A DNA stretch of 64,000 nucleotides from Pelagibacterales bacterium MED-G42 (GTDB lineage: Bacteria; Pseudomonadota; Alphaproteobacteria; Pelagibacterales; Pelagibacteraceae): NCBI GenBank assembly GCA_002457485.1, contig NTJL01000001.1:1-64000 (forward strand), written 5' to 3'. The position numbers and the translations under genes were made by a program. Below are positions 19,534-31,555 of the stretch, piece after piece (positions within the stretch are counted from its first letter, which is position 1; each line of letters starts with the position of its first letter). The notes under the pieces are model-generated. The model did no database searches, had not been told where the DNA came from, and saw only the letters and a program-made list of their open reading frames with translations.

Positions 19534-20043
19534 ATGAGATTTTTATTATTATTTACTTTTTTGATAACAAATGTTTTAGCCGATGAAATATCTGGAATTA
19601 CAAATATTGTAATCCACAAAGTACCAAAAACATACGATAACGTGATTTTTTTAGACAAAAAAGATGAAAAAATTAATATTAATGATTTAGAGGGTAACTT
19701 ATTGATATTAAATTTTTGGGCAACATGGTGTGAACCTTGTAAAGAAGAAATGCCATCACTAAGCAATCTTCAAGTCAATCCTAAATTAAATAAACTAAAG
19801 ATATTTCCAATTAATATTGGTAAAGAAAATTTAGAGAAGATTAATAAATTTTTTATAGACCTAGATATTGAAAACCTTGATCCCTATTTTGACCCTCCCA
19901 CAACCTTAGCTAAAAAATTTTCATTAAGAGGCGTACCAACATCAATCTTATTTAATAAAAATGGTCAAGAATTTGCAAGAATTATAGGGTCTATCAATTT
20001 TGAGGATAAAAATTTTATTAATTGGATAAAGAATTATAACTAA
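19534..20043 (+). CDS. TlpA-like thioredoxin-family protein
   Basis: Signal peptide, FWATWCEPCKEEMPSL, RGVPTSILFNKNGQ. Confidence 0.9.
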   Translation: MRFLLLFTFLITNVLADEISGITNIVIHKVPKTYDNVIFLDKKDEKININDLEGNLLILNFWATWCEPCKEEMPSLSNLQVNPKLNKLKIFPINIGKENLEKINKFFIDLDIENLDPYFDPPTTLAKKFSLRGVPTSILFNKNGQEFARIIGSINFEDKNFINWIKNYN

Positions 20044-20243
20044 TCTTTAAAAAAATAGGCAAAACCGACTAAAGCTAAGATTGCGATAAATTGAAAAATT
20101 ATTCTTAATTGCATTAATTTATTTGAATATTTTTTACTAGTTTCACCTCCTTTAAAAAGAGTTCCTATCCCTAAAATTAAAACAATTCCAACTATTATTA
20201 AAAATACAATAGAAATAATTTTAACAATTGTTCCTGTTACCAT
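20040..20243 (-). CDS. Twin-transmembrane HIG1-like small protein
   Basis: 67 aa, two hydrophobic helices flanking GTLFKGGETSKKYSNKLMQLRIIFQ. Confidence 0.75.
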   Translation of the reverse strand: MVTGTIVKIISIVFLIIVGIVLILGIGTLFKGGETSKKYSNKLMQLRIIFQFIAILALVGFAYFFKD

Positions 20244-20293
20244 TTAATTATTGTAAAGTGTTTTGTTAAAATAAAAAACATAATTAATTGAAT

Positions 20294-20944
20294 ATGACAT
20301 TTTGCCTAAATACTCAAATTATTAAACCGGAAAATGGTATGAAAATACAAAATGCTATTATTTTACTTCATGGATATGGTGGAGATGGTAAGGATATAAG
20401 TGCTTTATCTTTAAATTGGAAAAGACATATGCCTAATACTGTATTTATCTGTCCAGATGGACATGAAACTTGTATGATCAATTCATCAGGTTATCAATGG
20501 TTTGACTTAACAAAAGAGGATCCAGATTATATTCTTAAACAAACAATTAAAAGTGAAAATGTTATTAAGAAATTTATTGAAGAAATTAAATTTGAATTCA
20601 ATTTATCAAATAGTCAGATATGCTTGTCTGGTTTTAGTCAAGGATGCATGATGTCATTAAATGTTGGACTTACGGTTGAAGAGAACTTTTGTTGTATCGT
20701 TGGATTTTCTGGAAAAATAATAAATAAAAACGATTTAAAAAATAGAATGAAAAATCGTACTAATACTCTTCTTATACATGGTGAAGCTGATCAAGTAGTA
20801 CCTTCGACGCATCTTTTAGAAGCTGAAGATTTTTTAATAAGAAATAATGTTTCAGTTAAGACATTTTTAATTAAAAATTGTGATCATCACATTCCTATTG
20901 AAGCGTCAAGTAAAGCTTTGAATTTTATTTTAAAAAAAATTTAA
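20294..20944 (+). CDS. Phospholipase/carboxylesterase family alpha/beta hydrolase
   Basis: AIILLHGYGGDGKDISAL; LSGFSQGCMMSLNVGL; HGEADQVVP; CDHHIP. ORF track uses a TTG at 20288; ATG is at 20294. Confidence 0.85.
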   Translation: MTFCLNTQIIKPENGMKIQNAIILLHGYGGDGKDISALSLNWKRHMPNTVFICPDGHETCMINSSGYQWFDLTKEDPDYILKQTIKSENVIKKFIEEIKFEFNLSNSQICLSGFSQGCMMSLNVGLTVEENFCCIVGFSGKIINKNDLKNRMKNRTNTLLIHGEADQVVPSTHLLEAEDFLIRNNVSVKTFLIKNCDHHIPIEASSKALNFILKKI

Positions 20945-20992
20945 TATCAGTTAATGTTGATAAAGTTGTCTAACTAAGCTAAAAATAATATT

Positions 20993-21562
20993 ATGAATAG
21001 TTTTACAGAACAAAATGTTTCATTAGAAAAATGTCCAGCTTTGGTTCTTAATGCAGACTACAGACCGCTAAGTTATTATCCATTATCTTTATGGTCATGG
21101 CAAGATACTGTGAAATCTGTTTTTCTTGATCGTGTAATTATAGTTAGCAATTATGATAGAACAATTAGAAGTCCATCTTTTAATATGAAATTGCCAAGCG
21201 TAATAGCACTAAAAGACTACATTATTCCTCAGACCAAACCTAGCTTCACAAGATTTAATGTTTTTTTAAGAGACAAGTTCTCATGCCAATATTGTGGAAG
21301 TAATGAAGAGCTTACATTTGACCATTTATTACCTAGATCAAAAGGAGGAGAGACAAATTGGGATAATGTAGTTACAGCATGCTCAGTTTGTAATGTTAAA
21401 AAAGGTGGAAAATTGCTAAAAAATTCAGGCTTGAAACTTAATCAATACCCATATCGCCCTTCAACTGAAGACTTACATAAAAATGGAAAAAACTTTCCAC
21501 CTAATTATTTGCATAAAAGTTGGATGGACTATTTATATTGGGATGTTGAACTAGAGTCTTAA
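20993..21562 (+). CDS. HNH endonuclease family protein
   Basis: FLRDKFSCQYCGSNEELTFDHLLPRSKGGETNWDNVVTACSVCNVKKGG. Confidence 0.9.
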   Translation: MNSFTEQNVSLEKCPALVLNADYRPLSYYPLSLWSWQDTVKSVFLDRVIIVSNYDRTIRSPSFNMKLPSVIALKDYIIPQTKPSFTRFNVFLRDKFSCQYCGSNEELTFDHLLPRSKGGETNWDNVVTACSVCNVKKGGKLLKNSGLKLNQYPYRPSTEDLHKNGKNFPPNYLHKSWMDYLYWDVELES

Positions 21563-22092
21563 ATTTTTTCTGAAATATTTATTGCAATTTTTGATCCAGT
21601 TTTAATTATTTTATCCAATAATAAATACACTCCTTTTTTAGTTGCACCTTTTTCATATGCTATATCTTTATGAAGTAACTCATCTTCTCTAAATTTAGTA
21701 ATCTTTTTTTTTAATTCTGATTCATTTTTATCTAACTTTTTTATTTGATCTAAATAATGTTTGTCAATTACTTCTTCAACTGAAGCTGTACATAGCATAG
21801 CAGCTTTTTTTCCAAGCAAAGTAGAACCAAAACCTAGTCCCACTCCTAACAAGTCCCATAAAGGCAAAAATTTTGTTGGTGCTATATTTCTTTTATTTAT
21901 TTCTTTTTCAAAAAATTCACAATGTTCAACTTCATGTACTTTCATTTCTTCAATTACTTTTTTTAAATCATCATTTTTAACAAAAGTATTTAACGCAAGT
22001 AATTGACCCTCATAAATTTTTACTGCACCACGCTCTCCTGCATGATCAACCCTTATAAATTCTTCAATTTTTTTTTTATCAATTTTTGTCAT
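21559..22092 (-). CDS. coq7: Demethoxyubiquinone hydroxylase
   Basis: IRVDHAGERGAVKIYEGQL; HEVEHCEFF; diiron protein. Confidence 0.92.
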   Translation of the reverse strand: MTKIDKKKIEEFIRVDHAGERGAVKIYEGQLLALNTFVKNDDLKKVIEEMKVHEVEHCEFFEKEINKRNIAPTKFLPLWDLLGVGLGFGSTLLGKKAAMLCTASVEEVIDKHYLDQIKKLDKNESELKKKITKFREDELLHKDIAYEKGATKKGVYLLLDKIIKTGSKIAINISEKI

Positions 22093-22561
22093 AATCTAAA
22101 TAAATTCTTATTGTACTATAAGTTATTAATAACGAAATTATAATATTATAACTTGTAAGCGACAATCCAAAGATTGTAAATGTTACATCTTTACAGCTAA
22201 TATTTTTTGTTTGTAACTGTTTCAAAATTTCATCTTTTGATAATAAATTCATGCTACTTTTAAGATTACAAACAAAAGACTCTTCAATAAAACCTTTTTC
22301 GATTCCTAAATGGTATAATGACAATATGGTCGCAACCAAAAACACAATTGTAAGTAATAAAATTGATTTTTTTTCAAAATGATTAAATTTATAACTCAGT
22401 AAAATTACTACTATAGCTACTATGTATGGGATTCTTTCTAACAAACAGAGATTGCATGGTTGATAACCTAAAATATATTCTACAAAGTATGCAAACAATA
22501 AAGCCACAATACTAATTAAAAAAATAAATTTGATTATGAAATTTTTGTTATTTTTAATCAT
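22079..22561 (-). CDS. DsbB-family disulfide bond formation protein
   Basis: GYQPCNLCLLERIPYI; second Cys pair in loop; start trimmed to MIKNNKNF at 22561. Confidence 0.85.
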   Translation of the reverse strand: MIKNNKNFIIKFIFLISIVALLFAYFVEYILGYQPCNLCLLERIPYIVAIVVILLSYKFNHFEKKSILLLTIVFLVATILSLYHLGIEKGFIEESFVCNLKSSMNLLSKDEILKQLQTKNISCKDVTFTIFGLSLTSYNIIISLLITYSTIRIYLDYDKN

Positions 22562-23160
22562 TATATTTTTAAAAATAAATAAGCAATTATAAATATTATT
22601 ACTATTAAAATTCCAATAATGGAAAACCATTTTGATCCATGCTTATTCATGTACTCTGTAAATAATTCACCAAATTTATAAGATAAATATGCGACAATAA
22701 AAAATCTAAGACTTCTTGAAATTAGACTTACAATTATAAAAATTAGTAGATTAAAACCAATCATACCACTTGTAATAGTAAAGACTTTATATGGTAAGGG
22801 AGTAAAGCCAGCTAAAAACAGAATACTTAACCATACAAGAAAATTACTCCCCTCTGCCATGCTAAGTTTCAGATTTTCTACTTTTTTTTCATAGCCATAA
22901 AATTCAATTACATATATTCCTAAATCAAAAAAAAAATATCCAATTAAGTACCCCATTACGCCTCCTAAAACTGAAAATAAGGATGCAATAATGAATATTT
23001 TGATAAATGCTTTTTTTTTAGCAATCACCATGGGAACAAGCATTACATCTGGTGGAATAGGAAAAAAGGAACTTTCAACGAAAGAAACAAGACCTAGATA
23101 AAAATTGGAATTTTTGTGTTCAGCTAAATTTAAACATTTTCTATAGAGTGTTTGAAACAT
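22561..23160 (-). CDS. YqaA/DedA-family membrane protein
   Basis: SFVESSFFPIPPDVMLVPMVIA; GFTPLPYKVFTITSG. Confidence 0.88.
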   Translation of the reverse strand: MFQTLYRKCLNLAEHKNSNFYLGLVSFVESSFFPIPPDVMLVPMVIAKKKAFIKIFIIASLFSVLGGVMGYLIGYFFFDLGIYVIEFYGYEKKVENLKLSMAEGSNFLVWLSILFLAGFTPLPYKVFTITSGMIGFNLLIFIIVSLISRSLRFFIVAYLSYKFGELFTEYMNKHGSKWFSIIGILIVIIFIIAYLFLKI

Positions 23161-23221
23161 TTTTTGGTTTTAATATAAATTTAGTTCTTATACTATTTAA
23201 ATATAATTTATTAAATACCAA

Positions 23222-23306
23222 GGGCGAATGGCGGAACTGGTAGACGCGCACGACTCAAAATCGTGTTTCGTAAGAAGTGAGAGTTCGATTCTCTCTTCGC
23301 CCACCA
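23222..23306 (+). tRNA. tRNA-Leu (CAA)
   Basis: GGGCGAA/TTCGCCC acceptor, encoded CCA, anticodon arm CACGA-CTCAAAA-TCGTG, class II variable arm, GGTTCGAT-type T-loop (GTTCGATTC). Confidence 0.95.
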
Positions 23307-23312
23307 AAAATT

Positions 23313-25010
23313 ATGAATATAAACAAAAAGAATAATCTTTTAGAACTTTTTTATGATCAATATAAAAAAGAAAACCCCGAGCAATTATTTTTAAAGTCAT
23401 TAAAGCCTAATGGTAAAAAAATGACTTGGAATGATTCTTACCTAAATGTGCTAAAATTAGCTGATGACTTAAGTTTGTTAATTGAAAAAAATGATAGATG
23501 TTTATTAATTTCTGAAAATAGACCAGAATGGATGATTTCTGATTTAGCTATAATGTTAGCAAAAGGCATAACAGTTCCAGCTTATACAACATATTTAGAG
23601 AGAGATTATGAATATTTAATTAATGATTGTAATCCTTCGGTAATTATTGTTTCAGATGCATCTCAATATAATAAGATTAAAAACATAATTCAAAAAAAAT
23701 CCTTTATTAAAAAGATAATTTCTTTTGAAGAAATTAAAAATGAAAACAATGTCACTAATATCGAAAATATTTTTCAAAATGATAAATTCAAAGAAAGAGA
23801 CTTTTTAGATTTAGAAATATCAAGAAAAGATATTGCGTGTATAATTTACACCTCGGGCACACAAGGAAATCCAAAAGGAGTGATGTTGAGCCATGGAGGT
23901 ATTTTAAACAATTGTGAAGGAGCCTTATTATTACTTGAAGAATTAGTTTCGAAGAAACCAAAATTTCTTACTTGGCTACCACTTTCACACTCCTATGAGC
24001 ATACTGTCCAGTTTGTTCAGATAGCAATTGGTGCAGAAGTAAATTATGCCGAAAATATAGATAAGTTAATTAAGAATATGGGTGAATGTTGTCCTGATAT
24101 TATGACAGCTGTTCCAAGATTTTATCAAAATCTTTATCAAAAAATTAATGCATCTTTTAATAAGACAAGGGGTATAAAAAGATACCTTATTAAAACAACG
24201 CTACGTCTTGGAAAGAAAATATTATTTAAAGAAAATTTAAAAACTTTTGAGAAAATACAAAACCTGATTTGTGAAAAATTGGTTAGAAAAAAAATAAAAG
24301 CTCAATTTGGAGGACGTTTAAAAACATTTATATCCGGTGGTGGAGCGCTAGATGAGGATGTAGGTATTTTTTTAAATGCTATAGGTTTGCCAACATTGCA
24401 AGGATATGGCCTAACAGAAACATCTCCAGTGGTAAGTTGTAATCCTATAAATGATATAAGAATTGATACAGTAGGACCTGCATTTAGTGGAAATCAAGTA
24501 AAAATAGCTAGTGACGGTGAAATTTTAGTTAAAGGAGAAAATGTAATGTTAGGCTATTGGAATAATGCAGAAGAAACAAAAAAAGTTTTGAAAGATGGTT
24601 GGTTATACACTGGTGATATCGGCCATTTTGAAAAAAATTATTTAAAAATTACTGATAGAAAGAAAGATATATTAATTACTCCTGGGGGAGACAATATTTC
24701 TCCAGTAAAAATTGAAAATGATTTATTAAAAATAGATTTTATAGAACAAGCATTGGTTTATGGAGATAATAAACCATATTTAGTTGCATTATTACTGGTA
24801 AAAAAAGAAAGTGAAGATATTACAGATGAAAAAATCTTTGAACAAATAAAAATAATTAATAAAAATTTATCAAAAATAGAACAAATTAAAAAATTTTTTA
24901 TTATAAAAGATCAATTTACAATTGAAAATGGGTTGATAACACCAACATTAAAATTAAAAAGATATAAAATTATTCAAAAATATAAAAACCAATTAGAAAA
25001 CCTTTATTAA
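23313..25010 (+). CDS. Long-chain acyl-CoA synthetase (AMP-dependent)
   Basis: IIYTSGTQGNPKGVMLSHGG; LQGYGLTETSPVVS; GWLYTGDIG; ORF-track start 23277 lies inside the tRNA, so trimmed to ATG 23313. Confidence 0.9.
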   Translation: MNINKKNNLLELFYDQYKKENPEQLFLKSLKPNGKKMTWNDSYLNVLKLADDLSLLIEKNDRCLLISENRPEWMISDLAIMLAKGITVPAYTTYLERDYEYLINDCNPSVIIVSDASQYNKIKNIIQKKSFIKKIISFEEIKNENNVTNIENIFQNDKFKERDFLDLEISRKDIACIIYTSGTQGNPKGVMLSHGGILNNCEGALLLLEELVSKKPKFLTWLPLSHSYEHTVQFVQIAIGAEVNYAENIDKLIKNMGECCPDIMTAVPRFYQNLYQKINASFNKTRGIKRYLIKTTLRLGKKILFKENLKTFEKIQNLICEKLVRKKIKAQFGGRLKTFISGGGALDEDVGIFLNAIGLPTLQGYGLTETSPVVSCNPINDIRIDTVGPAFSGNQVKIASDGEILVKGENVMLGYWNNAEETKKVLKDGWLYTGDIGHFEKNYLKITDRKKDILITPGGDNISPVKIENDLLKIDFIEQALVYGDNKPYLVALLLVKKESEDITDEKIFEQIKIINKNLSKIEQIKKFFIIKDQFTIENGLITPTLKLKRYKIIQKYKNQLENLY

Positions 25011-25128
25011 TTGTAATTTTTAAAATGATTATAAACCGCATAAACATTAACAAAATTAATAAAATTAAAATTATTTAAATTAAAAAATAAAAATTAATTT
25101 TTTTAAAAATTAACTTCTAATTAACTAT

Positions 25129-25157
25129 TTGACATAAGTTATAGAAAAAAATAAAAA
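25129..25157 (+). promoter_or_regulatory. Promoter of the Lys-rich mini-ORF
   Basis: TTGACA (25129-25134) - 17 bp - TAAAAA (25152-25157). Confidence 0.55.
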
Positions 25158-25167
25158 TAAGTTAATA

Positions 25168-25186
25168 ACGAATCAATTTGATTCGT
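25168..25186. promoter_or_regulatory. 19-bp palindrome, operator-like
   Basis: ACGAATCAA-T-TTGATTCGT: 9-bp arms, 1-bp centre, just downstream of the predicted promoter. Confidence 0.5.
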
Positions 25187-25209
25187 ATAACTAAAAAAGG
25201 GAGCTAAAG

Positions 25210-25299
25210 ATGCCTAAGAAAAGAAAAAAAGCGGCAAAGAAAACTAAGAAAAAAGCTAAGAAAAAAGCTAAGAAAAAAGCAAAAAAAAGAAGAAGATAG
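25210..25299 (+). CDS. 29-aa polycationic Lys/Ala/Arg-rich peptide, absent from the ORF track
   Basis: MPKKRKKAAKKTKKKAKKKAKKKAKKRRR*; preceded by GGGAG ribosome-binding-like sequence; own promoter and terminator. Confidence 0.75.
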   Translation: MPKKRKKAAKKTKKKAKKKAKKKAKKRRR

Positions 25300-25315
25300 T
25301 AACTTAGTATTCTTT

Positions 25316-25359
25316 AAAAAACGCTTCTCATTTCATTTTGGATGAGAGGCGTTTTTTTT
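25316..25359. terminator. Bidirectional rho-independent terminator
   Basis: AAAAA-ACGCTTCTCAT-TTCATTTTGG-ATGAGAGGCGT-TTTTTTT between convergent genes. Confidence 0.9.
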
Positions 25360-26254
25360 ATTCTTCAAGATTATCTTCAGTATCAGAAATTGGCTCATCA
25401 ACCGGCAAATCTGCTTTCACAACTTTAGGAGATTGAGCTTGATCTTTATTAGCCTCTAAATTCCTTTTAAGGGCTTTGTCTAATTTTTTCTGTGTATCCT
25501 GTATTGATAAATCTAAAACAATCTGGAATTCTAACAAAATTCTATCATAAGCTTTTTCAAATAGTTGTCTTTCACTGTAAGATTGGTCTACCATGAGGTC
25601 ATCACCTTTATTTAAGTCTCTAACAACTTCAGCTAATTCATATATTTTTCCTGATGAGATTTTTGCCTCATATTCTTGAGCTCTTCTGCTCCACATTGAT
25701 CTTTTAATTTTTGGTTTGCTCTTTAGTATTGATATACATTTATTGACTTGATTAATAGTTGCTAGCGCTCTTAGATGAGATTGTTTATTAACAGGAACCA
25801 TTCCATTTGCTTTGTCTTTTTCAAATTTAATGACGTATGTTTCAACATCTATTCCACCAATATTGATTTTTTTGAATTCTGTTATTTGCCCCACACCATG
25901 TTTAGGATAAACTACATAATCTTTAATCTTGTATTCTCTTTTTTCTGTTTCTTGTTTTTTAACTTTTTTAATTTCAGGTTTAATTTCATTACCTTTTGAA
26001 ATCCTTAAATTATCATTTTTAGCCTCAAGTTTTAGATTATTTGTTTTTTTTTCTTTACTAATTTTAGAAACTTTTGTGGATTTTTTCTTTATAATTCTTT
26101 TAGTTTTATTTTTTATACTTTTCTTTGATTTTGATTTTATTTTATTTAAAGAATTTGAAGTTTTAATTTTTGATTTTGACTTTTTTTTACTTTTTATTTT
26201 AGAGTCATTTTTAAAGATTTTCTTTAAAATATTTTTCGTACTTATTTTGCTCAT
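25358..26254 (-). CDS. CarD/CdnL-family transcriptional regulator with Lys/Ser-rich N-terminal extension
   Basis: [27 protein letters not shown]...[18 protein letters not shown] is the CarD RNAP-interacting domain; ~100 N-terminal residues are highly basic. Likely start [10 protein letters not shown]. Confidence 0.88.
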
Positions 26255-26537
26255 CTGTATATTTTTCGTGATCCGCAAATGGATCTTTTTTTTCATTTAT
26301 ATTTGGCCAGATTTCTGAATATTTAGTATTCATCTCTAACCATTTTTCGCTTCCAGGCTCTGTGTCAGCTTTGATAGCATCAACTGGACATTCTGGCTCA
26401 CAAACGCCACAATCTATACACTCATCAGGTTTAATTACAAGCATATTTTTACCTTCATAAAAACAATCGACAGGGCAAACCTCAACACAGGTAGTATGTT
26501 TACACTTTATACATTTATCATTAACAATATATGTCAT
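26211..26537 (-). CDS. fdxA: Ferredoxin (3Fe-4S/4Fe-4S, FdxA type)
   Basis: [29 protein letters not shown]...[16 protein letters not shown]. Confidence 0.93.
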
Positions 26538-26538
26538 C

Positions 26539-26949
26539 TTAAATCTTATCTTTTATTCTATTTTTAATGTCTCCCATAGTCTTACCATCAATATATAAAA
26601 GACCACCTAGTCTCCTCATTAAATTTGTTTCATAAACGTCAGCATTTTTATTTGAATAAATAATAGACCACAAAGACTCTACAATTTTGATTTTATCTTT
26701 TTCAGATAAACTTTTCACTTCTCTTGTAAATTCTAAAATTTGATTTGAATCTTCTTCAATAATCATAGCCTGTTTAAGCGTGGGTAATAAATCATTTTTA
26801 GGACAACCTAATTCTAAAAGAGTTTCTTGTATTATTCCCTCTTCCTTAATGGTGAATTCTTCATCTATTTTAGCTGCATGGACAAGAAGTGCACATATTT
26901 TTATAAAGAAATTACTTTCCAATTTATTTTTATTATTTTTAAAAAACAT
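26539..26949 (-). CDS. TerB-domain protein
   Basis: [27 protein letters not shown]... [31 protein letters not shown]. Confidence 0.75.
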
Positions 26950-26954
26950 TATAA

Positions 26955-29429
26955 TTAATTGAGGTTTAAATCCTTTAATATATTAAATGGATTAGAGTTA
27001 GAAATTTTCTTAGTTATAATTTTGTTAAATCGTTTATTTGGAATATATTTAAAAAATGTTTCTTTTTCTTTATCAATTATTTTATAACCCATTTTCTGTA
27101 AAAGTTTTTTAAAATTATCTTTACTACATCCTAAAAGATTTAACATTTCAGGTATCATTTTTATCTCTTTATTATCTTTTGAATTAATTATTTGCATGAA
27201 CAATCTTTCAAGTATATCTATTCTAACAAATAATGTATCAAATTTCTCAAATCCACATAGCAACATAAAATTTTTATTTTTATTGTCTTTATCATCTAAA
27301 AAATTCAATCCAAAGGTGGGTGGTTTTAACTTATAATACTTTTGATGAAAATTTTTCCATAATAATGTTCTCAGCGATACAGCCTCTGGCTTAATCAATT
27401 GATGTAAAAAGACATGGTATCTTCCAAATTTAACACCCAATTCTCTTAATATTTTTCTTTCATTTTGGCCAAGTGATTTTAAATATTCAGATACTTGCTC
27501 TCTTTTTAATACCCCATTATTCTCATATAACTGATAGGCCAAAGCTTTAATTGAGGAATTTTTTTCCTTAAGATTTTTAAGATCAATAAGACTCTTGAGA
27601 ACTATATTAATTTTATTTTCTATCCATTTGTTAATAAATATATTTAATTTTTGCTTTTGATTTTGATCAATAGCATCATCGATAATTAGCTCAATATTAG
27701 GACTTAGATAATCATTCCCATTGGATAGTCTTGCTATTGGATAGTTGTTCCAATATATTTTAAAATCATCATTTAACTCTATTAAATTAGTCTCAATAAT
27801 TGTTTCAATTCTTTTTTCAAGCTCAGGGCCAATGGTTTGTCTTGCAGCTTTTTTTAAGGATTTAATATCAGTTTCTAATGCTCCTTTTTTTAAATCCAAC
27901 TCTAATTTAAGACCATTAATTCTACCAATAAACTGGTTATCAATAATTACACTATTATCCTCTAATATTTCTGTTTTAAATTCCATGTCTTGTTTTAAAC
28001 CTCTTGCAAGAATACTCGCTCTTTTGTCAATAAATGTTTTTGTAAGCTCCTCATGAAGTCTATCTGAAAGTCTATCTTCTAAGTGTTTAGTTTTTTCAAT
28101 CCAATAATTTTGATTTTCTGTCCAATTATTTTTATTAGAAACATAAGACCAAGTTCTTACATTTGCAATTCTATTTGATAAAGAATCTACATTTCCCTCT
28201 AATTTATCTAATTTTATTAACTGTAATCTCATGTATTCGTCACTAATTTGACCTTTTTCACCAACTAAAAAGTTAAAAACATTACTTATGACTTCATAGT
28301 GATTACCATAAGTCTTTTTAACAAAATCTGGGATTTGACAACATTCCCAAAGAATATTGAGTTTTTTTTCATCAAATTTAAAATTTATTAAACTTTTCTC
28401 TTTTAAAAAATATTTTAAAGCTCTTTCATCCTCACATTCATGGATTTTTCTTAGCCATTCCACTTGGGGTCTTTCTTCTAAAGATTTAATTAAACTTTGT
28501 GAATTATTAAAATTAAGATTTGAATTTCTCCAAAATAAAGTTCTGATCTCCCCAAACTTATGACTTTCTATAAGTTCAACATCCTCTGCAGTTATCTCTT
28601 TACAATCACCAGTAATACCAAAATTACCATCATTTAAATATCTACCTGCTCTTCCAGCAATTTGACCTATTTCGGAAATATTTAATTTCCTTAATTTTTT
28701 TCCATCAAATTTTTTAAGATTAGAAAAATATACATGATCTAAATCCATATTAATTCCCATGCCTATAGCATCAGTTGCAACTAAAAAATCAACATCACCA
28801 GATTGATAAAGCTCTACTTGAGCATTCCGTGTTTTAGGACTTAAGGATCCCATTACTATAGCGGCACCCCCTTTTTGTCTTCTAATCAATTCAGCAATAG
28901 CATAAACCTCCTCAGCAGAAAATGCTATTATTGCTGTTTTTCTATTAATCCTAGAAATTTTTTTGTGTCCTCCATAAGTAAGTTTAGATAGACGTTCTCT
29001 GTTTATGAACTCTATATCTCCATTTAATCTAGAAATAATTTTTTTTATGGTGTTTGAGCCCATAAACATGGTAAGCTTTTCACCTCTTATATTCAGGAGT
29101 CTGTCAGTAAAAATATGTCCTCGTTCGTGGTCAGCACACATTTGTATTTCATCAACTCCTACAAACTCTAAGTGTTTATCGATTGGCATAGACTCAACTG
29201 TACATAAGAAATATTTGGCATCATTAGGAATAATTTTTTCTTCTCCTGTAATTAGAGCTACTTTGTGTATACTTATTTTTTTTATTACTTTGTCATACAC
29301 TTCTCTTGCCAATAATCTTAAAGGAAAACCAATCATGCCAGACTCAAAAGACAGCATAGTATCTATTGCAAGATGAGTTTTGCCCGTATTAGTAGGACCT
29401 AAAACAGCTGTAATTTTATTTTTAGTCAT
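26955..29429 (-). CDS. SUV3-like ATP-dependent RNA helicase
   Basis: AVLGPTNTGKTHLAIDTML; GFPLRLLAREVYDKV; VGVDEIQMCADHERGH; VATDAIGMGINMDLDHVYF; GQIAGRAGRY. Confidence 0.92.
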   Translation of the reverse strand: MTKNKITAVLGPTNTGKTHLAIDTMLSFESGMIGFPLRLLAREVYDKVIKKISIHKVALITGEEKIIPNDAKYFLCTVESMPIDKHLEFVGVDEIQMCADHERGHIFTDRLLNIRGEKLTMFMGSNTIKKIISRLNGDIEFINRERLSKLTYGGHKKISRINRKTAIIAFSAEEVYAIAELIRRQKGGAAIVMGSLSPKTRNAQVELYQSGDVDFLVATDAIGMGINMDLDHVYFSNLKKFDGKKLRKLNISEIGQIAGRAGRYLNDGNFGITGDCKEITAEDVELIESHKFGEIRTLFWRNSNLNFNNSQSLIKSLEERPQVEWLRKIHECEDERALKYFLKEKSLINFKFDEKKLNILWECCQIPDFVKKTYGNHYEVISNVFNFLVGEKGQISDEYMRLQLIKLDKLEGNVDSLSNRIANVRTWSYVSNKNNWTENQNYWIEKTKHLEDRLSDRLHEELTKTFIDKRASILARGLKQDMEFKTEILEDNSVIIDNQFIGRINGLKLELDLKKGALETDIKSLKKAARQTIGPELEKRIETIIETNLIELNDDFKIYWNNYPIARLSNGNDYLSPNIELIIDDAIDQNQKQKLNIFINKWIENKINIVLKSLIDLKNLKEKNSSIKALAYQLYENNGVLKREQVSEYLKSLGQNERKILRELGVKFGRYHVFLHQLIKPEAVSLRTLLWKNFHQKYYKLKPPTFGLNFLDDKDNKNKNFMLLCGFEKFDTLFVRIDILERLFMQIINSKDNKEIKMIPEMLNLLGCSKDNFKKLLQKMGYKIIDKEKETFFKYIPNKRFNKIITKKISNSNPFNILKDLNLN

Positions 29430-29596
29430 TATCTATCTTTGGTATATACCTTTTTTTACCTACCAGATATTGTTGCTGTTAAAGAACAAAAATAGACTAA
29501 AACATGACCGAATCGTAAGAAAAAAAGTTCTCATTTTAGTTAATGTATAGTTAGATTAGCATAAATTAGTTTAATTCTATAATAATAATTTAAAAA

Positions 29597-31555
29597 ATGA
29601 CCAAAAAACTTTGGGAAGCATCTTTATTTCAAAAAAAAAATTCTATTTTGTTCTCATTTGAAAACTATATTTCAAAGAGATGTAAAATAAATTTTAATAG
29701 AAATTATGAGAGATTATTAGATTGGACTATAAAAAATTCTCCTAAATTTTGGAGTTTGTTTTGGGATTTTTCAAATATTAAAGGAATTAAAGGCAAGAAA
29801 GATATAAAAAAATCAAAAGTATTTTATAAAAATTTATTTTTACCAAATAGTAAGCTTAATTTTGGAGAAAATTTATTATCTAAAAATAATAGTGAGAAAG
29901 CCATAACTTTCATTAGTGAAAATGGTTTTAGAGAGATAAGAACTTGGTCTCAATTAAATCAGGATACAAATAAAATAGTACAATTTTTAAAGAGAATTAA
30001 AATTAAGCAAAATGATAGAGTTGTTGCTTATACACCCAATATTATAGAGGCAGTTGAGGCATTTATTGCAACAAGTACTATTGGTGCTGTATGGTCGTCT
30101 TGTTCACCTGACTTTGGAGTTCAAGGAGTTATAGAAAGATTTGCACAAATAAAACCTAAAGTGCTTTTTATTACTGATCAGTATTTCTATAATGGAAGAA
30201 GAATTAATATTATAGACAGACTTCCAAAAATTCTTAAAGGAATTCCGTCTATTAAGAATGTAGTTATAATAAAATATCCTAGTGAAAAATTTATTAAATG
30301 CAAAACTTTAAAAAAAGTTAGAACATTTAAATGGACTGACTTATTAAAGAGTAAACTTCAAATATTTAATTTTACAAAATATGATTTTGAACATGAAATT
30401 GCTATTCTTTATTCAAGTGGAACTACTGGAAAGCCAAAATGTATTTGTCATAAATCTGGTGGTGTTTTAATTCAACATAAAAAAGAGCATCAATTACATT
30501 GTGATATTAAAGAAGGTGACAATGTTTTTTACTTTACTACATGTGGTTGGATGATGTGGAATTGGTTAGTTAGCGTTTTGTCTTCAAAAGCATCAATTGT
30601 TCTTTTCGATGGATCGCCAATGTTCAAAAAAGACGATTTATTGCTTAAAATTGCTGAGAATGAAAAGATTACATTATTTGGAATTAGTGCCAAATATATA
30701 GATTCTTTGAGAAAATTAAAACCAAATTTTAAATATAAATATAAACTTAAATATTTGAAAACAATTTGTTCTACAGGCTCTCCATTATCAAATGATGGAT
30801 TCAAGTACGTTTATCAGAATATTAAAAATAATGTTCACTTAGCATCTATTTCTGGTGGTACAGATATCGTTTCATGTTTTGTTTTAGGCAATTTATATCA
30901 ATCAGTAAATATTGGTGAAATTCAGAACAAAGGATTAGGACTTGATGTTGATATTTTTAGTGAATTAGGAAAACCGTTAAAAAATAAAAAAGGCGAACTA
31001 GTTTGTAAAAATCCTTTTCCATCTATGCCTTCAAAATTTTGGAATGATAAACAAGATAAGAAATTTAAAGACGCATATTTTAATTATTTTCCTAATATTT
31101 GGCGTCATGGTGATTTTGCTGAAATAAAAAATACAAGAGGATTAATTATACATGGAAGGTCAGACACAACTTTAAATCCTGGAGGTGTTAGGATAGGAAC
31201 AGCTGAAATTTATTCAGAGGTTGAAAAGTTTCAAGAAATAAAAGAGTCCATTGTCGTTGGACAATCTTGGAACAATGACGTCAGAGTTATTTTATTTGTA
31301 GTAATGCACTCTAAACATAACTTAACAGAAGATTTAGTAAAAAGGATAAAAGTAGATATCAAAACAAAAGTATCTCCAAGACATGTTCCAAGTAAAATAA
31401 TTGAGGTTAAGGATATTCCAAGAACAAAAAGTGGTAAAATAGTTGAACTTGCAGTAAGAAATATTATAGAGGGAAACGGTATAAAAAATAAAGAAGCATT
31501 AGCTAATCCAGAAGCTTTAAAACAATTTAAAAATTTAAAAGACTTAAAAATATAA
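29597..31555 (+). CDS. Acetoacetyl-CoA synthetase
   Basis: AMP-binding enzyme: FEHEIAILYSSGTTGKPKCICHKSGGVLIQHKKEHQLHCD; GWMMWNWLVSVL; PGGVRIGTAEIY. Confidence 0.88.
   Translation: MTKKLWEASLFQKKNSILFSFENYISKRCKINFNRNYERLLDWTIKNSPKFWSLFWDFSNIKGIKGKKDIKKSKVFYKNLFLPNSKLNFGENLLSKNNSEKAITFISENGFREIRTWSQLNQDTNKIVQFLKRIKIKQNDRVVAYTPNIIEAVEAFIATSTIGAVWSSCSPDFGVQGVIERFAQIKPKVLFITDQYFYNGRRINIIDRLPKILKGIPSIKNVVIIKYPSEKFIKCKTLKKVRTFKWTDLLKSKLQIFNFTKYDFEHEIAILYSSGTTGKPKCICHKSGGVLIQHKKEHQLHCDIKEGDNVFYFTTCGWMMWNWLVSVLSSKASIVLFDGSPMFKKDDLLLKIAENEKITLFGISAKYIDSLRKLKPNFKYKYKLKYLKTICSTGSPLSNDGFKYVYQNIKNNVHLASISGGTDIVSCFVLGNLYQSVNIGEIQNKGLGLDVDIFSELGKPLKNKKGELVCKNPFPSMPSKFWNDKQDKKFKDAYFNYFPNIWRHGDFAEIKNTRGLIIHGRSDTTLNPGGVRIGTAEIYSEVEKFQEIKESIVVGQSWNNDVRVILFVVMHSKHNLTEDLVKRIKVDIKTKVSPRHVPSKIIEVKDIPRTKSGKIVELAVRNIIEGNGIKNKEALANPEALKQFKNLKDLKI

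Follow-up and report, generated by a model that had tools for sequence, protein, structure and literature searches.

A conserved polycation gene beside carD

SAR11 bacteria are among the ocean's most abundant groups of organisms and carry one of the most streamlined genomes. Within a 64-kb stretch of SAR11 DNA (the window), we asked whether a 29-codon reading frame at 25210-25299 (+) is a gene, and what its product, MPKKRKKAAKKTKKKAKKKAKKKAKKRRR, might do. The translation is exactly that of the initial annotation: 21 of the 29 residues are K or R and none is acidic. Upstream lies a fatty-acid-ligase-type gene (23277-25010, +), and on the other side a convergent carD/cdnL-type gene (25358-26296, -), the constant neighbour, recognised from Pfam matches, neighbourhood and tail sequences. 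Its product matches Pfam CarD_TRCF_RID and CarD_C, with closest named relatives exclusively from Pelagibacteraceae, Pelagibacterales or Ca. Pelagibacter. The CarD-type protein has a lysine-rich N-terminal tail of its own, a low-complexity stretch of 126 aa in the window (25919-26296, -; K/R 38%) and of 62-126 aa in the SAR11 relatives read (K/R 40-45%), with the polycation gene convergent alongside.

Using carD as the anchor, we read the adjoining DNA at 158 SAR11 loci, a set in which some genomes may be represented twice, from two collections. In 152 of the 158, a short K/R-rich ORF lies complete at the same place and strand; it is cut by a contig edge in five (L022, L024, L157, L074 and L078), and the last locus (L215) stops short of the ORF position. 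Repeats probably break contigs here, five assemblies ending within the polycation gene. Conservation of the frame at this locus was what the initial annotation had made its claim of a stand-alone polycation gene depend on, and on that test the claim holds. Peptides of the window's family span 21-58 aa (MPKKRKKAAKK..., MAKRRKKAKKK...), and the same place in the second family of the order encodes 40-99 aa (MEELKVIFAKARKKAKKKAAPKKKRKAAKRK...). Longer relatives contain AKKRKPAAKKKAPAKK or KKAAPKKK repeats, and it is through in-frame repeat units that length ranges from 21 to 99 aa, K/R/A composition staying nearly exclusive; most members have 21-35 aa. The start codon is invariant across relatives. 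Kinship of the gene between the two families is argued from locus and leader, not from alignable protein sequence.

We then evaluated coding constraint, taking background statistics from the window plus 400 kb of a complete genome (G012). A minimum spanning tree joining 71 distinct ORFs has 86 codon changes, of which 52 are synonymous and 34 non-synonymous, where a fraction of 0.21 would be expected to be synonymous (p = 5e-15, an indicative value, as tree edges are not fully independent and the repeat alignment is approximate). Runs of at least eight A occur 0.31 times per ORF versus the 1.6-2.3 expected under synonymous recoding, a level reached in 0 of 500 trials, with the inherited GCT-AAG-AAA-AAA repeat unit contributing to the deficit. 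The lysine codon AAG makes up 28% in polycation ORFs versus 12% in other genes. Stand-alone ORFs of at least 18 aa with K+R above 60% number two in 464 kb of SAR11 DNA, namely the window ORF and its G012 orthologue. The synonymous excess, the K+R rarity and the avoidance of A-runs rule out a chance ORF in A-rich DNA, and an attenuator or leader peptide with lysine codons was rejected because no co-directional gene follows, only the convergent carD. Judged on these comparisons, it is very nearly certain that this is a real gene conserved in the order Pelagibacterales (SAR11), and we infer that it is translated.

To assess how far the gene extends, we searched with a model of promoter and leader built from sequence only (R1). 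One strong copy was found in 52 of 58 Pelagibacterales genomes, and a single copy in 38 of the 39 better ones. Roughly 380 other Alphaproteobacteria gave weak matches only (E 8e-4 or worse) with no comparable polycation ORF alongside, and none of 27 carD loci of other orders has an adjoining polycation ORF. The gene is apparently order-specific.

Expression signals

The leader runs in the order TTGACA(T), weak A/T-rich -10, ACGAATCA-loop-TGATTCG, GGGAG, ATG, and promoter and leader together are more conserved than the peptide. Where the initial annotation had proposed a consensus promoter with 17-bp spacing, the -35 box (TTGACA, 25129-25134, +) is a consensus match, with TTGAC in every aligned leader; the -10 candidate at that distance is only a weak TAAAAA (25152-25157, +), with an alternative AAAAAT at 25153-25158 (+; 18-bp spacer, 10/12 matches). 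An A-rich block, AAAAAAATAAAAATA, is kept in most leaders of the window's genus. Promoter-like matches are not enriched in the 10-kb region (53 found, 66 expected from shuffles), and what makes this promoter credible is its conservation across relatives. The proposed Shine-Dalgarno site is indeed present as GGGAG at 25199-25203 (+), kept in nearly all leaders (as a GGAG variant in genus g228 and part of the second family), and its GGAG core ends 6 nt upstream of the ATG. Among 355 SAR11 genes encoding 150 aa or more, only 32 (9%) have an SD-like site.

Downstream, a symmetric intrinsic terminator (A6...T6, 18 pairs) is predicted at 25316-25357 with a dG of -21.7 and a z of -7.3, the stronger of two found in 20000-30000. 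The terminator that had been assigned to the peptide gene is thus real but probably not its own, since it abuts the carD stop and is symmetric and so probably serves both genes. Most loci of the second family have, in sequence, their own stem-loop and T-run 3' of the peptide gene, followed by another. Strong monocistronic expression, as first suggested, is plausible from the conserved promoter, Shine-Dalgarno site, 5' hairpin and terminator.

In leaders of the second family (L061-L080, L212-L214), AACCUCUAACUAAAC is almost invariant and a CCC-GGG hairpin adjoins the Shine-Dalgarno site; the hairpin shows one compensatory change to CGC-GCG, weak evidence in that 37 of 500 shuffles equal it. The AACCUCUAACUAAAC element lies opposite the G-rich Shine-Dalgarno site and may form a translational switch with it. 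In the window's family, CUCC faces GGAG in two genera, an anti-Shine-Dalgarno pairing that the window's genus lacks. Translational control is plausible in the second family and in these two CUCC-bearing genera.

Rfam returned nothing at gathering score for the locus, only sub-threshold matches, and just three tRNAs for the window, and a known structured RNA was rejected on this ground. Among the candidate-RNA intergenic regions listed for Ca. P. ubique, whose locus tags are partly unmappable, none is named as neighbouring carD (PMC2704228).

An invariant CGAATC at the predicted transcription start

A perfect inverted repeat, CGAATCA-ATT-TGATTCG (25169-25185), sits where transcription is predicted to begin and holds two GANTC sites. 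It was missed by the initial annotation and is the most testable lead at the locus. GANTC is the target of CcrM, which GAATC fits. The first site (GAATC, 25170-25174) sits within CGAATC, which all 92 distinct leaders, drawn from both families, contain; GAATC itself is kept at all 79 covered named loci. CGAATC keeps a distance of 39-43 bp to the -35 box in 144 of the 145 leaders measured; the exception, from the second family, has another TTGAC closer by. Its distance to the ATG ranges from 36 to 63 nt. Fixed on one side and variable on the other, these distances indicate that CGAATC is tied to the promoter, at a position just beyond the predicted start. The second site (GATTC, 25180-25184), in the 3' arm, is retained at every one of the 79 covered loci in the genus; it also occurs in the second family and is absent from several other genera.

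We next considered whether the motif is kept for methylation or for the RNA. A serious contender, to which we give slightly less than even odds, is that methylation is uninvolved and that CGAATC persists only because it forms the 5' arm of a hairpin stabilising the RNA or belongs to the start-site sequence. The predicted transcript begins with a hairpin of 8-bp stem and 3-nt loop (25168-25186, +), and a 5' hairpin is predicted in all 92 distinct leaders (mean z -4.4). The window's genus pairs CGAATCA with TGATTCG, and two genera have mostly GATTTG as the 3' arm, keeping the pairing through G-U. Loop length varies, which weakens a reading of the inverted repeat as a DNA operator, and CGAATC is stricter than GANTC, the preceding C and the A at N being fixed. 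In three genera, however, the stem is shifted (for example ATCACTTAAA/TTTAAGTGA) so that CGAA is unpaired, and CGAATC is still kept. By this comparison CGAATC is conserved beyond the need of pairing, and also beyond GANTC alone; both roles may apply.

The scarcity of GANTC also argues against a role in RNA or start site only. GANTC occurs at 0.39 of expectation in a 459-kb SAR11 sample. The 6.2-kb neighbourhood has 10 such sites, and relatives retain five of them (a tRNA holds two, a Suv3-like helicase gene one and the polycation leader two) and have mostly lost the others. The only other intergenic TTGAC-N33-38-GANTC in the sample belongs to the G012 orthologue. A CcrM-type RAMA protein is encoded in 23 of 25 SAR11 genomes and GcrA in 20 of 25. 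In Pelagibacter, GANTC methylation follows an ori-ter gradient with a few unmethylated sites, mostly intergenic (PMC9516812). Across the window and the G012 stretches, the density of GANTC in intergenic DNA is about 1.5 times that in coding DNA.

The helicase is an 824-aa protein (26955-29429, -) matching a Suv3 DEXQ-box domain, of a family best known from mitochondria, and the GANTC inside its gene at 28183 is retained by all 75 covered relatives despite the general avoidance. Another conserved CGAATC lies at 29509 in ACTAAAACATGACCGAATCGTAAGAAAAAAAGTTCTCATTTTAG, upstream of an acyl-CoA-synthetase-type gene at 29597, with a close copy in G012 (L235, position 13876).

A probable nucleic-acid-binding polycation

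The predicted product is a stand-alone polycation whose composition resembles a histone H1 tail and that belongs to no named family. At E up to 1 neither Pfam nor NCBIfam holds a family for it, low-complexity queries scoring poorly, and PHROGs and PDB sequence searches with the same low-complexity query gave no match. A class-wide protein search returned nothing even in SAR11 genomes; low-complexity correction leaves all of these searches uninformative. No description of the gene was found in the open-licence literature. With 54% K, 18% R and 18% A, the polycation shows the K/A-rich low complexity and the repeat-number variation of H1-like bacterial polycations. Of the initial likeness to histone H1 or HU, the H1-tail part is supported by composition, most clearly by the AKKRKPAAKKKAPAKK or KKAAPKKK repeats of longer relatives; the HU part fails, HU being folded and encoded separately. 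HU or another folded nucleoid protein was accordingly rejected as its identity, the peptide having no Pfam match (HU is PF00216) and true HU genes lying elsewhere, in 21 of the 21 genomes searched.

Our best explanation, with a probability of roughly 0.5 for the whole and function read from composition, is a nucleic-acid-binding polycation with a nucleoid role and an output tuned by GANTC methylation. A monocistronic SAR11 gene would yield a disordered polycation, a minimal counterpart to AlgP, Hc2 and the C-terminal tail of histone H1, related to them in kind and not by demonstrated descent. Its charge would make it bind nucleic acid, chromosomal DNA being the likeliest target, and in very small cells it would so help to compact the nucleoid or neutralise it. 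Transcription would start at or next to the invariant CcrM-type site, and output would probably be tuned by GANTC methylation, perhaps via GcrA, and hence be coupled to replication. The transcript would be short, and its predicted 5' hairpin, 3' terminator and unusually strong ribosome-binding site suggest an abundant product. With composition and charge conserved and length not, a non-specific polyanion binder is a better fit than a peptide with a fixed docking site, and we infer DNA as the likeliest ligand partly because the promoter is possibly replication-linked. Counting against this explanation, the presence of HU means that a nucleoid protein is not missing and that the peptide would supplement HU; the strictness of CGAATC beyond GANTC means that an RNA or start-site role may account for the motif; and the site lies just downstream of the predicted start, unlike the GcrA footprint at Caulobacter ctrA P1.

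If the nucleoid reading were pushed further, the peptide would be a protamine-like minimal chromatin peptide, with the CcrM site at the start reading replication state so that each round triggers new polycation; we consider this stronger version unlikely. It would mean a dedicated order-wide chromatin system packaging the doubled DNA of an extremely small cell, overlooked because its gene is 21-99 low-complexity codons.

Other ligands and functions deserve weighing against chromosomal DNA. The polycation may instead bind polyphosphate or RNA, as an AlgP-like granule organiser or an RNA chaperone, an option to which we give about one chance in five. AlgP, an H1-like KPAA-repeat protein, is associated with polyphosphate granules (PMC9239181), and KKAAP/KPAA-like repeats recur in SAR11 relatives; the locus, however, has no specific link to a polyphosphate or RNA gene, its constant neighbour being carD. 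Somewhat less probable is a lineage-specific small ribosomal protein or assembly peptide threading into rRNA, in the manner of eL41, bTHX and mycobacterial bS22/bL37. Near-universal presence, a strong Shine-Dalgarno site and the K/R-rich make-up of members mostly of 21-35 aa would suit such a protein, but the SAR11 peptides run from 21 to 99 aa according to repeat number and conserve no position-specific residue other than K/R/A, variation that a fixed rRNA pocket is not expected to tolerate, and the PDB search found no counterpart for the low-complexity query. Finally, it is very improbable that the transcript acts mainly as a small structured RNA, composed of a 5' hairpin, an A-rich body and a terminator, with the ORF secondary: the leader is better conserved than the ORF and a hairpin stands at each end of the transcript, but the frame survives many length changes, codon changes are biased to synonymous ones, A-runs are avoided, the start codon is invariant, the Shine-Dalgarno site nearly so, and Rfam has no match at gathering score.

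Significance and comparison with known systems

The gene marks a real gap in the known SAR11 gene set: it is near-universal and single-copy, matches no family, and its promoter is better conserved than the protein it encodes. The peptide would not be expected to survive trypsin-based proteomics, and the gene would be expected to fall below length cut-offs. Should it package DNA, the peptide would be among the smallest chromatin proteins known, and if the methylation site is functional, SAR11, from which ctrA orthologues are reported missing (PMC2877005), would gain a concrete, testable GcrA/CcrM target.

The locus shares features with four known systems and departs from each. As at GcrA/CcrM promoters such as Caulobacter ctrA P1, there is a conserved GANTC in the promoter region and there are CcrM- and GcrA-type genes in the genome; GcrA protects ctrA P1 from -35 to about +7 (PMC3667746), whereas the SAR11 site is just inside the predicted transcript start. 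The tiny ribosomal proteins eL41, bTHX, bS22 and bL37 are likewise stand-alone, basic and K/R-rich, at about 22-35 aa. Their fixed length and position-specific residues are not found in the SAR11 peptides, which vary freely from 21 to 99 aa, driven by repeats. Chlamydia Hc2 (HctB), like a related protein of Bordetella type, varies in length by repeat number, and Hc2 is longer, at 165-237 aa (PMC2848022); the likeness, a lysine-rich polycation whose length follows repeat number, is compositional, without demonstrated homology, and SAR11 has no known developmental cycle. With AlgP of Pseudomonas aeruginosa the SAR11 family shares K/A/P-rich H1-tail-like repeats, clearest in relatives of 50-99 aa. 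The AlgP C-terminal tail, however, is 154 aa within a larger protein (PMC9239181), whereas the whole SAR11 product has 21-99 aa and the window peptide is without proline repeats.
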